A stretch of DNA of 53,248 bases from Microcaldota archaeon. Lineage in GTDB: Archaea; Micrarchaeota; Micrarchaeia; Micrarchaeales; CABMGC01. The DNA lies in the NCBI GenBank assembly GCA_021797745.1, contig JAJZZD010000007.1:1-53248 (forward strand), read 5' to 3'. Under the pieces are notes generated by a model that was given only the letters and a program-made list of their open reading frames with translations, was not told the origin of the DNA and searched no databases. Positions 35,243 to 39,721 of this stretch are shown here, in pieces; positions within the stretch are counted from its first letter, which is position 1, and each line of letters opens with the position of its first letter. A program made the position numbers and the translations under genes.

Positions 35243-35398
35243 AAAAATCCTCGAACAAGCATTATTTATGCAGTTTAAACTTATTATTGCTTTTGCTGCT
35301 TTTCAGACTTACAATCAGCAAGTTTAGCACATAAAAAATACTATTATTTTTAATATAACGATGAAAGCTTTATAATCTAATAAATAAACAAACATAGT

Positions 35399-37186
35399 AT
35401 GACTAATGATTATCCATCGCCGCAGGCCAAAGAGCTATATCAAAAGGCCCAAGAAGCCTTTGAAAATGACAAATTTGAAGAAGCCATAAACCTTTACACT
35501 CAGGCAATAAAAGAGTGCGACAACTACGCAAGCGCTTATTTTAACAGGGCACTAGCTTACGCGATAATCAACAAATTTGAAGAAGCCAAGGCAGATGCAG
35601 TAAAGGTCATGAAACTGGAGCCAAATGCCGCAGATGCTCCTTTCGTAATGGGTATTGTAGAAAAATATGCGGGAAATTACGACGCAGCAGCGAGATGGCT
35701 GCATGTATCGCTTAGCAAAGATCCTAATTACACTCAGGCTCAAACTGTATTGAATTCACTTCCGGCAAGTGTTACATCAAGTTCAGAGAATCAGACAGTT
35801 AAGGCTAAAACTGCATCAAACTCGTCTCCAGTAAGTGTTTCATCGCATTCAATAGCCGAGAATTATGCTAAAGAACTTTTTGACACTGCAAAAAAACTTT
35901 TTGACGAAGGTAACTTGGAGCAGTGTGAATTTTATTGCAGTTTGGTTCTCGGCATAAATATCGGATATGCCGATGCTCTTTTCCTCAGAGTCAAATGTTA
36001 TTTAATGCAGGGTAATCCACAAAGGGCATCATACGATGCCATTGATTTTTTGCGACGGAATCCTGAAAGCGCGCAGGCGTACTACTTATTGGGTCTTATT
36101 GCTGAAAATCAGGGGCAATACGATTTGGCAAAGAGCAACTACGAAAAATCATTGGAAAAAAACCCTGCATACAATGAAGCAGCAGATGGTTTAGCGCGCC
36201 TGCAGAAAGGCAAAACAAATGGGGCTCCGTTCGCAGTTAAACCATTTCTTAAAATGGCATCAAACGAAAATATAGGGTCGTTCGTCCCGGAAATGGTTAC
36301 TAATTTGTCCTTCCAGAATGTAATTGACCTTGAAGAAGTAAAAACCGCGATTAAAACGAGTATAATAATGCCTTTAGAAAAGCCAAAACTCGCGAAAGAG
36401 TATGGAGTTGAAATCGGTGGCGGAGTACTGCTTTACGGACCGCCTGGTTGTGGAAAGACCCTCATCGTAAAAGCAGCGGTCGGAGAGGCAAAAGTTAATT
36501 TAATTTCTGTAAAAATCTTCGACGTTCTTAATGAATATGTTGGCAATACTGAAAAAGGCATACACAATGCTTTTGTTGCTGCGAGACAAAATGCACCATC
36601 GATACTATTTTTTGACGAAGTTGATGCCATAGGAACAAAACGCGAAGCCAGCAACGAGCCGTGGGAAAGAAAAGCCGTTAACGCGTTTTTGATGGAGATG
36701 GATGACCTTGCGTCATCAGGAGACAACGTAATGGTGATAGGAGCAACAAATGCGCCGTGGTTTATAGACGATGCAATCAAAAGATCAGGCAGGCTTGGAA
36801 ATTTCATATACGTTCCTGCACCAAGCGACGAATTTCGAGCAGAACTTTTCCGTATGTATCTCAAGGACAAGCCACTCGACGTGATCGATTACGGCAAATT
36901 GGCAAAAGCCACAAAGTTCAGGACTGCTGCGGACATAACGCACATATGCGATATGGCTACGCGAAATGTTTTTTCAAGGAGCTTCATCAATGATCACAAA
37001 GAAAATATAAGCATGAAAGACTTATTGGATAGCATAGCGAAGTTACCTCCGACTCTTTCTGACTGGTATGAAAGCGTTTATAGCAACATTGCAGGTTTGC
37101 GTGAAGACGAAACGTACGCCGCATTAATTAATGCAATAAACGATTACGAAAAGTCTAAGACACTTGGGCAGGAAACCTACAGATGA
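35399..37186 (+). CDS. TPR-AAA+ ATPase fusion (Cdc48/Vps4-like AAA domain)
   Basis: This is a 595-aa protein. Residues 1-115 hold three TPR units (AKELYQKAQEAFENDKFEEA first), a serine-rich linker follows (about 118-150), then a second TPR block (about 152-275). The C-terminal AAA domain (about 300-520) has Walker A GPPGCGKT (about 346), Walker B ILFFDEVDAIG (about 401), sensor 1 VIGATN and the arginine finger region RSGRLGNFIYVP. TPRs probably recruit clients for remodelling. TATA GCTTTATAATC (35366-35376) is about 28 nt before the ATG. After the TGA stop, the +1 frame encodes a tail DEHQDTAPAPPAPVLFPILN, so a late frameshift is possible. Confidence 0.88.
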   Translation: MTNDYPSPQAKELYQKAQEAFENDKFEEAINLYTQAIKECDNYASAYFNRALAYAIINKFEEAKADAVKVMKLEPNAADAPFVMGIVEKYAGNYDAAARWLHVSLSKDPNYTQAQTVLNSLPASVTSSSENQTVKAKTASNSSPVSVSSHSIAENYAKELFDTAKKLFDEGNLEQCEFYCSLVLGINIGYADALFLRVKCYLMQGNPQRASYDAIDFLRRNPESAQAYYLLGLIAENQGQYDLAKSNYEKSLEKNPAYNEAADGLARLQKGKTNGAPFAVKPFLKMASNENIGSFVPEMVTNLSFQNVIDLEEVKTAIKTSIIMPLEKPKLAKEYGVEIGGGVLLYGPPGCGKTLIVKAAVGEAKVNLISVKIFDVLNEYVGNTEKGIHNAFVAARQNAPSILFFDEVDAIGTKREASNEPWERKAVNAFLMEMDDLASSGDNVMVIGATNAPWFIDDAIKRSGRLGNFIYVPAPSDEFRAELFRMYLKDKPLDVIDYGKLAKATKFRTAADITHICDMATRNVFSRSFINDHKENISMKDLLDSIAKLPPTLSDWYESVYSNIAGLREDETYAALINAINDYEKSKTLGQETYR

Positions 37187-37251
37187 GCATCAAGATACAG
37201 CACCAGCTCCACCAGCTCCAGTTTTGTTTCCTATTTTGAATTAAAATTAGG

Positions 37252-37296
37252 GCGTTTAGAGGGTGGGGAATAACGGGTAAAATACGCTCTAAACGC
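37252..37296 (+). ncRNA. 45-nt G-rich-loop hairpin, related to the 19.5-20 kb copies
   Basis: GCGTTTAGAG pairs perfectly with CTCTAAACGC (10 bp), closing a 25-nt loop that starts GGTGGGGAATAAC and ends AAAATACG. The loop matches the 42-nt elements (GGTGGGGAACAAAATACG), while the stem sequence is entirely different but still complementary. It lies 66 nt after the TPR-AAA stop in a 388-bp gap; the rest of the gap holds a TATA-like AGTTTATAAATG near 37318, T-rich tracts and no credible gene. Confidence 0.5.
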
Positions 37297-37574
37297 TTGC
37301 ATATGATTTGTGATAAAAGTTTATAAATGCTCCCTAAACTGATGTATTCAGAACTTTGTCCTTTTTTCCCTTAAATCCCTTGACATTTTTTTGGCATACT
37401 TTATCAAGTTCTTTGAGTTTTTAATCATTGAGTAGAGAGCTTTAGTCTAATTTAGCAACCTTTTACCGTATCTGCCTAATAACCGAACCTACATTATAAA
37501 AACATAATAAAATATTCGCCATTCGCATTTTAAACTTTTGCAATCATAACTGGCGGACTGGACTCACCACTCGC

Positions 37575-38198
37575 TTACTTAATTTTTAGTAGTTTATTTC
37601 CTGCATTTTGCAAAACTGACTTTATGCTTTTTAGAGCGTTTATTAATTCTGGGATTTCTGCGCTTTTTCCATAAATTACTATTGTTCCTGTGTTTCCGAT
37701 TTCTCGTATGTTCACGTATTGAGCAACTACATTTATCAAGTCATCCGACAGATTTTTATCTTTGTTCGCAATCGCCAAGGCAAATTTTGCCCTCTCGACG
37801 ATGATTTCAGACAGCAAATTTTTGTAAGAAGTTTCGTCAAGAGGTTCGGGCAACTCGCGCCTTAAATTTGAAGACCTTCTGCAAATTTCTTCATTGGCTA
37901 TTTTTAATGCGTTGTGGCTATACGTTTCTCCTGTGCTTTTTTTAAGCTCTTCTACCGCTATTTTTATATCTTCATAGAACTTTTTTGGTATTTCCACCAG
38001 CTTCTCTTTATGAATTTCCCTAAGCGACGAATCTTTTTCATATAACTCAGTGAATTTTTCTTTAGCCTTGAAGCGCTCTTCCAAAAAAGCAGTGTGTGCT
38101 CCGCCAGCCACGACTATCACTGCCACCTTTTCTTGCCTCGCATTATTTTTACGCTCCTTTTTAATCTCTTCAATTACTGTGCTTAATCTTTTTTCCAT
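37575..38198 (-). CDS. C-terminal part of a gene split by an in-frame TGA
   Basis: This 207-aa frame (from the ATG at 38198) is in exact register with the frame at 38250-38720; only one TGA (38250-38252) separates them, and the 17 codons between that TGA and this ATG read AYCDAIEKYEIENRSYH, protein-like and stop-free. No ribosome site precedes the ATG. The segment VAVIVVAGGAHTAFLEERFK could be the C-terminal GGAH region of TraB/ChaN/Tiki-like proteins, a weak resemblance. The combined protein would be about 381 aa. Nonsense mutation, readthrough or two real proteins are all possible. Confidence 0.6.
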   Translation of the reverse strand: MEKRLSTVIEEIKKERKNNARQEKVAVIVVAGGAHTAFLEERFKAKEKFTELYEKDSSLREIHKEKLVEIPKKFYEDIKIAVEELKKSTGETYSHNALKIANEEICRRSSNLRRELPEPLDETSYKNLLSEIIVERAKFALAIANKDKNLSDDLINVVAQYVNIREIGNTGTIVIYGKSAEIPELINALKSIKSVLQNAGNKLLKIK

Positions 38199-38249
38199 GT
38201 GATAGGATCGATTTTCTATCTCGTATTTTTCTATTGCATCGCAGTATGC

Positions 38250-38720
38250 TCAGCTAAAAACTAAATCTTCGAGATCCAAAGTTCTATAAAAATAATTTTC
38301 AGTCATCTCTGACTTTACGCGCTGTGCTGCCATAAATAGAAGCTCGGCATAATTGTAATCGCTGGGTCGCATCATAACCATTCCCATCGGTGTGTAATTT
38401 CTGCTTACAAAGTCGAGAGGTTCTAAGTACACTTTCTGGGGCATTTCCTTTATTTTTATGATGGCGTCTAAAATCGGCATTTCTATGCCTTGTAGCTCAG
38501 TTTCAACAGCCTTTACGTTCTCCACAATCTTTGTTGCAACAGCCTCATGTTTAAGGTAGTTGGCTATCATGTTATTCATATTTCCTATGCTTAAGGGTTC
38601 AATCAGAACTATTAACTGGCTGTAATTCTTACCTGCCACATTCTGGACCGCATTTACCAAGTCTTCTGATTGGTCTACATAATGAAATAATGAGAATGTG
38701 TACACGTCGATATCCTGCAT
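38250..38720 (-). CDS. N-terminal part of a gene split by an in-frame TGA
   Basis: This 156-aa frame begins DIDVYTFSLFHYVDQSEDLV, with a strand, a histidine and then LIVLIEPLSIGN, loosely like the N-terminal G-x-x-H ... E block of TraB/ChaN-type proteins. It ends at the TGA at 38250-38252 inside otherwise continuous coding sequence. A shared AT-rich element (TATATATA at 38750-38757) is about 30 nt upstream of the ATG. Function not established. Confidence 0.6.
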   Translation of the reverse strand: MQDIDVYTFSLFHYVDQSEDLVNAVQNVAGKNYSQLIVLIEPLSIGNMNNMIANYLKHEAVATKIVENVKAVETELQGIEMPILDAIIKIKEMPQKVYLEPLDFVSRNYTPMGMVMMRPSDYNYAELLFMAAQRVKSEMTENYFYRTLDLEDLVFS

Positions 38721-38747
38721 TTAATCAAATTTCAATGTGCATGTGCG

Positions 38748-38759
38748 TATATATATTGT
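38748..38759. promoter_or_regulatory. Palindromic TATA element between divergent genes
   Basis: GTATATATATTG is about 24 nt upstream of the plus ATG at 38777 and about 33 nt from the minus ATG at 38720, so it could serve both directions. Confidence 0.45.
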
Positions 38760-38776
38760 TTTAGTTAGTTTTCGGA

Positions 38777-38917
38777 ATGCTGATAATTCAAAAGTATCAA
38801 AACATAAAGAAATTTGAAAAAGGCAAGAAAATATTTCTAGAGCAATGCAGACCTGCTGAAAGAACTTGGCGAAAACTTCGTGCCAAGCGCATAATAAGTA
38901 ATGATTTAACTGCATAG
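38777..38917 (+). CDS. 46-aa basic small protein with its own TATA box
   Basis: The ATG at 38777 opens MLIIQKYQNIKKFEKGKKIF then LEQCRPAERTWRKLRAKR, ending at a TAG at 38915. It is strongly basic and helical with one Cys. The TATA box at 38748-38759 has the spacing expected for a leaderless mRNA. It might bind nucleic acid; no family is recognised. Confidence 0.5.
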   Translation: MLIIQKYQNIKKFEKGKKIFLEQCRPAERTWRKLRAKRIISNDLTA

Positions 38918-38979
38918 CAACAATGCGCAACAGCAAAGTAATTAAAGTTCATTTTCCTATTCACAAGTAGGGCATAAAC

Positions 38980-39336
38980 ATGTCGTCATCAGGAACAGCG
39001 ATGGTTACTGTAGGAATAATTCTGCTTGCAGTCGCCGTGTTTTTCGGATACCTGGTCTACACTGGCACATCCACCGAATCAGAGTCAACGCTCATATCCG
39101 AGATAAGGAACGTATCTAGCGCATCCGGAAACTCAGTTTCGGGCACTGCTGGATTTGCAGTGGACCTAAGTCCTATTTTCATAGAATCCACGTTCCTGAT
39201 AGTTAAGATACTCGTACTTATGCTCTTTGCGAACGTAGGCTATAAATTCGTAAGCTTGGGGCTACAGGAAAACCGTGAAGCTGCGAGGGAAGAAAGCGAA
39301 AAAACGCAGGTGCCGAAGAAGCGCAGCACCGATTGA
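38980..39336 (+). CDS. Two-helix membrane protein of unknown function
   Basis: This 118-aa protein has a transmembrane helix at about 8-28 (VTVGIILLAVAVFFGYLVY), an external Ser/Thr-rich linker, a second helix at about 70-92 (STFLIVKILVLMLFANVGYK) and a charged cytoplasmic tail ending KKRSTD. No family recognised. It is convergent with the SMR pair 40 nt downstream. A TAATTAAAG element about 40 nt upstream may be its TATA box. Confidence 0.65.
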   Translation: MSSSGTAMVTVGIILLAVAVFFGYLVYTGTSTESESTLISEIRNVSSASGNSVSGTAGFAVDLSPIFIESTFLIVKILVLMLFANVGYKFVSLGLQENREAAREESEKTQVPKKRSTD

Positions 39337-39376
39337 CTGATGTGTGCAAAGTTCAGCTCCAAAGTCGGCGCATAGG

Positions 39377-39721
39377 TCAGCTCAAGCCTATCAGCACAGT
39401 TCCTATTGTTATTACGCCTATGCCTGCCCATCTGAGCAACGGTATCTGCTCGCTCAAAAATATGAAAGCCATGAAGCTGGCAAATACGTAGCTCAGCCCG
39501 GTGAACCCGTAAGCCCAGCTCAGGTATGAACGCCCTATCACGTAGAAATACGACAGCGTTGCTATGCCGTAAACAGCGAGCCCCGCGGCCAAGAAAACAT
39601 ATTCATAATACGAATACGATGTCACGCCTATCTTGAAAAGCAGCTGCCCTATTGCGCCAAGGAATGTGCTGCCCACAAGCACGAGGATGTTGATTGTTTT
39701 TTGATTGTCCATGATACTCAC
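39377..39721 (-). CDS. SMR/EamA-type small membrane transporter, subunit 2
   Basis: This 114-aa protein has four membrane helices in the small multidrug resistance/ArnE-ArnF pattern, with the GQLLFKIG motif in the first helix and the closing helix WAGIGVITIGTVLIGLS. It lacks the EmrE-type essential Glu in helix 1. It begins 6 nt after the other SMR gene, and the pair probably forms a heterodimer, possibly a lipid-linked sugar flippase or drug exporter. Confidence 0.78.
   Translation of the reverse strand: MSIMDNQKTINILVLVGSTFLGAIGQLLFKIGVTSYSYYEYVFLAAGLAVYGIATLSYFYVIGRSYLSWAYGFTGLSYVFASFMAFIFLSEQIPLLRWAGIGVITIGTVLIGLS

Follow-up and report, generated by a model that had tools for sequence, protein, structure and literature searches.

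The minus strand of positions 38720–37575 in the window (the whole 53,248-nucleotide stretch of Microcaldota archaeon DNA analysed here) carries a single 381-codon reading frame with exactly one internal stop, a TGA at 38250–38252 that forms codon 157; a whole-genome search likewise reports one TGA in this frame. We consider this to be, probably, a lineage-specific gene broken by one nonsense codon that is either recent or a base error in the assembly, and most likely an ordinary nonsense break rather than a new decoding trick. The likelihoods attached to this and to the other readings below are our own judgement and not a computed posterior.

The frame comprises three parts, all on the minus strand. 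ORF1 (38250–38720; 156 amino acids plus the TGA) forms the N-terminal part and ORF2 (37575–38198; 207 amino acids, ATG to TAA) the C-terminal part, the two being separated by a gap of 17 open codons (38199–38249, AYCDAIEKYEIENRSYH) that lead from the TGA to the ATG of ORF2. The initial annotation had described two ORFs in one register with 17 stop-free codons between them, and the sequence bears this out. All 224 codons downstream of the TGA are open. ORF1 is preceded by a TATA-box-like sequence, TATATATA (38748–38755, minus strand), that lies 28–35 nt upstream of the ATG at 38720, a position that would fit an archaeal promoter giving little or no leader and serving the whole frame. There is no clear TATA-like box before ORF2, although a GATCC 6 nt ahead of its ATG is a possible partial Shine–Dalgarno site.

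Clues to the nature of the protein come from three segments of the 381-amino acid reading: a His strand (VYTFSLFHYVD), a Glu strand (LIVLIEP) and, later, a GGAH strand. By alignment and motif scoring the first two make up a Tiki/TraB-like N-terminal motif in ORF1 (VYTFSLFHYVDQSED...LIVLIEP) and the third a GxxH motif in ORF2 (VAVIVVAGGAHTAF), so that the His/Glu motif lies N-terminal and the GxxH motif C-terminal of the TGA. The order of His strand, Glu strand and later GxxH strand is that of Tiki/TraB/EreA/ChaN-type proteins (PF01963 TraB_PrgY_gumN, PF18950 DUF5694, PF04187). Searching the relatives with PF01963 yielded divergent Tiki/TraB-type proteins in Micrarchaeota, and an alignment of these finds further members, in 38 of 301 genomes. 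When six Micrarchaeota Tiki/TraB-like proteins were aligned with the 381-amino acid reading without guidance, invariant H, D, E and P residues fell in ORF1 and the His of GxxH in ORF2. The N- and C-terminal motifs occur in the family's order, with an ordered two-motif score that was matched by 4 of 3000 shuffles and beaten by one of 304 real ORFs (L112), itself Tiki-like; because we chose this family by eye on the strength of the GxxH motif, that part of the test was not blind. The reading is also similar in size to the Micrarchaeota Tiki/TraB-like members (278–457 amino acids).

Unlike proteins of the Tiki/TraB/EreA/ChaN type, the reading gives no significant profile match, has a longer spacer before GxxH and carries at its C terminus an additional helical part of about 150 amino acids. 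Its family-profile score is 6.9 bits (E 0.07), every recognised relative reaching at least 14.6 bits, and a search of the 301 phylum genomes with the family alignment does not recover it at E ≤ 0.01. With hhalign the probability is 2% and agreement is local only. Weak Pfam matches, among them DUF2096_N, B12-binding and VWA, were rejected as falling below cut-off and being inconsistent. A further family motif, Arg-x3-Met (RN..M), initially placed exactly on the gap and second ATG, was dropped: its Arg is ambiguous, being R171 (in the gap) in the six-protein alignment and R178 (in ORF2) in larger alignments, and the motif arises by chance in 3.4% of shuffles. The assignment to a divergent Tiki/TraB/EreA-type domain is thus suggestive; should it hold, the TGA would fall inside a single domain, and a broken gene would be favoured over a pair of genes. 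The members of the divergent Tiki/TraB-like family in Micrarchaeota (L109, L110, L113–L116, L122–L129 and L131) mostly lie below the Pfam cut-off and one of them, L114, is fused to ankyrin repeats.

A structure model built with 17 family rows (pLDDT 55, pTM 0.50) predicts a beta-alpha-beta arrangement, followed further on by a long helix (residues 150–192) that passes through the TGA position and then by a second beta-alpha-beta arrangement. Block confidence is 70–87 in most of the motif segments, the model not being independent of the alignment supplied to it. Foldseek found no PDB match at E ≤ 0.001; the top-probability match listed was 5t09 (probability 0.44, E not significant), whose fold has been grouped with EreC and ChaN (PMC7979712). 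A single-sequence model and its PDB search were discarded, confidence being too low.

The genome to which the window belongs, as contig C9, consists of nine contigs totalling 806 kb and is about 91% complete; the window's topoisomerase has close relatives from Candidatus Micrarchaeota MAGs. Homologues of the 381-codon reading were sought widely. No match at E ≤ 0.001 was obtained in 79 family genomes, only chance-like matches (E 0.005–0.007) were seen in 164 order genomes and 301 phylum genomes, and no homologue turned up in a pattern scan of GTDB contigs or in searches of viral contigs, phages and plasmids. Weak matches in two genomes (G124 and G172) were rejected as chance similarity to unrelated proteins. 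The frame lies in an interval (35243–39376) between the conserved LonB and EamA/topoisomerase I genes whose content is variable among Micrarchaeota genomes, from about 100 bp in one relative (L078) to several genes elsewhere, including MscS-like, ABC-transporter or aminoacyl-tRNA synthetase genes (names read from the sequences). A TPR-AAA ATPase gene (35399–37186, plus strand) occupies the same interval, convergent with the broken gene but not part of it. A lineage-specific gene within such a variable interval is unremarkable. One relative's LonB (L068:790-4065) contains an in-frame intein of about 430 amino acids at about residue 225 (Intein_splicing 1.1e-13, LAGLIDADG_3 weak), which the window's LonB lacks.

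Could the two ORFs simply be neighbours? Two separate adjacent genes encoding proteins of 156 and 207 amino acids, co-transcribed, sharing a register by chance and separated by a 51-nt spacer, make the main rival reading, which we regard as rather unlikely. The shared register and open gap on their own are weak evidence for one gene, because the window contains 13 same-frame pairs of ORFs of at least 80 amino acids each, mostly with gaps of 0–7 codons, several of which are clearly real separate neighbours, such as the two EamA genes at 39377/39728 that are two genes in relatives as well. Moreover, 40% of 51-nt intergenic stretches are open anyway, and the partial Shine–Dalgarno-like GATCC also speaks for a separate second gene. 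Against this, codon usage in the gap is coding-like: it scores 0.133 nats per codon, where real coding 17-mers average 0.181, and only 9.8% of the intergenic and 3.3% of the off-frame stretches that are open do as well. Two separate genes would also have to account for the splitting of two motifs of one putative domain between ORF1 and ORF2, and for the single helix that the model predicts through the gap. Both halves show, in their own frame, a codon bias similar to that of genes in the window (0.099 and 0.177 nats per codon), so that the two sides of the TGA and the gap all look coding in one register, as in a single gene interrupted by nonsense. Since normal in-frame codon bias is accompanied by an unbroken run of open codons after the TGA, the downstream part has not decayed. 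Two things decide in favour of a single interrupted gene: the codon usage of the gap and the sub-significant Tiki/TraB/EreA-type likeness across the TGA.

If there is one gene, the TGA might instead be decoded, and the initial annotation had offered regulated readthrough and selenocysteine-like recoding alongside nonsense mutation. The last of these is best supported. TGA is a real stop elsewhere, as had been proposed: among 30 reference genes in the window it is the commonest stop (TGA 13, TAA 10, TAG 7) and the tRNA-Trp found has the anticodon CCA, both of which argue against reassignment of TGA to an amino acid. Recoding as selenocysteine is extremely improbable in our estimation. Archaeal selenoproteins have an in-frame TGA in common with this frame, and Methanococcales, Methanopyrus and Lokiarchaeota are known to use selenocysteine (PMC5330540), but here, unlike in archaeal selenoproteins, no Sec machinery was found and no conserved residue lies at the TGA. 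Neither SepSecS nor SelD has a match in the genome, and the best three matches to the SelB profile are EF-1A, aIF2-gamma and an EF-1A-like paralogue rather than SelB; given a genome about 91% complete, it is unlikely that the Sec components are all missing by chance. The EF-1A-like paralogue, a second GTPase of 410 amino acids beside the normal EF-1A (L020:112-1344; G000:C3, minus strand), reaches 304 bits against the EF-1A subfamily, short of the cut-off of 502. Searching for selC, selB and a 3′ SECIS, as the initial annotation had advised, found none of them. The best match to the tRNA-Sec model RF01852 (41.6 bits, below the cut-off of 47) is tRNA-Ser(GCT). The one point in favour of selenocysteine is that ARAGORN, with introns allowed, labels C6:52018-52110 on the minus strand (L050:1498-1594) as tRNA-SeC(TCA), but this is a tRNA-Asp(GTC) interrupted by a 17-nt intron; once the intron is excised, a standard tRNA-Asp remains, whose anticodon stem is CGAGC/GCTCG. 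No other tRNA-Asp is present among the tRNAs read, and ARAGORN is documented to make false tRNA-Sec calls (PMC5330540). As for a residue conserved at the TGA, alignment with the putative family reveals none, the TGA column being an insertion relative to the family (a weak test, there being no close homologues).

Programmed or leaky readthrough of the TGA, giving products of both 156 and 381 amino acids with no need of selenocysteine machinery, would agree with a downstream part that is still open and of normal codon usage, yet we judge it very unlikely. The stop context (AGC TGA GCA) is not followed by stable structure (z +0.83 downstream), neither the sequence around and after the TGA nor the 3′ region yielded a SECIS, other structured RNA or an Rfam match, and no suppressor tRNA is present among the tRNAs read; there is thus no positive evidence for regulated readthrough.

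Returning to the interpretation of a gene broken by nonsense, we envisage one 381-codon gene, specific to the lineage and probably encoding a divergent Tiki/TraB/EreA-type domain, that would have been interrupted at codon 157 either by a recent nonsense substitution or by an erroneous base in the metagenome assembly. The TGA would be read as an ordinary stop, giving a truncated product of 156 amino acids at most, and some internal initiation may occur at the downstream ATG. The two halves would once have formed one protein, the break presumably being recent. In this the gene resembles single-stop prokaryotic pseudogenes, with one in-frame stop, an open frame and normal codon usage on both sides and TGA as a normal stop, but it has no known intact relative to show the parent or the original codon. 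Peptides from AYCDAIEKYEIENR would indicate that one frame is translated.

Two cautions follow for the reading of such loci: same-register neighbours are frequent in this compact genome, and the ARAGORN tRNA-SeC call on an intron-containing tRNA-Asp is an annotation trap that is easily mistaken for support for recoding. Should the break be a genuine mutation, this lineage would recently have lost a gene that it alone possesses, one situated in the variable interval between Lon and EamA/topoisomerase.
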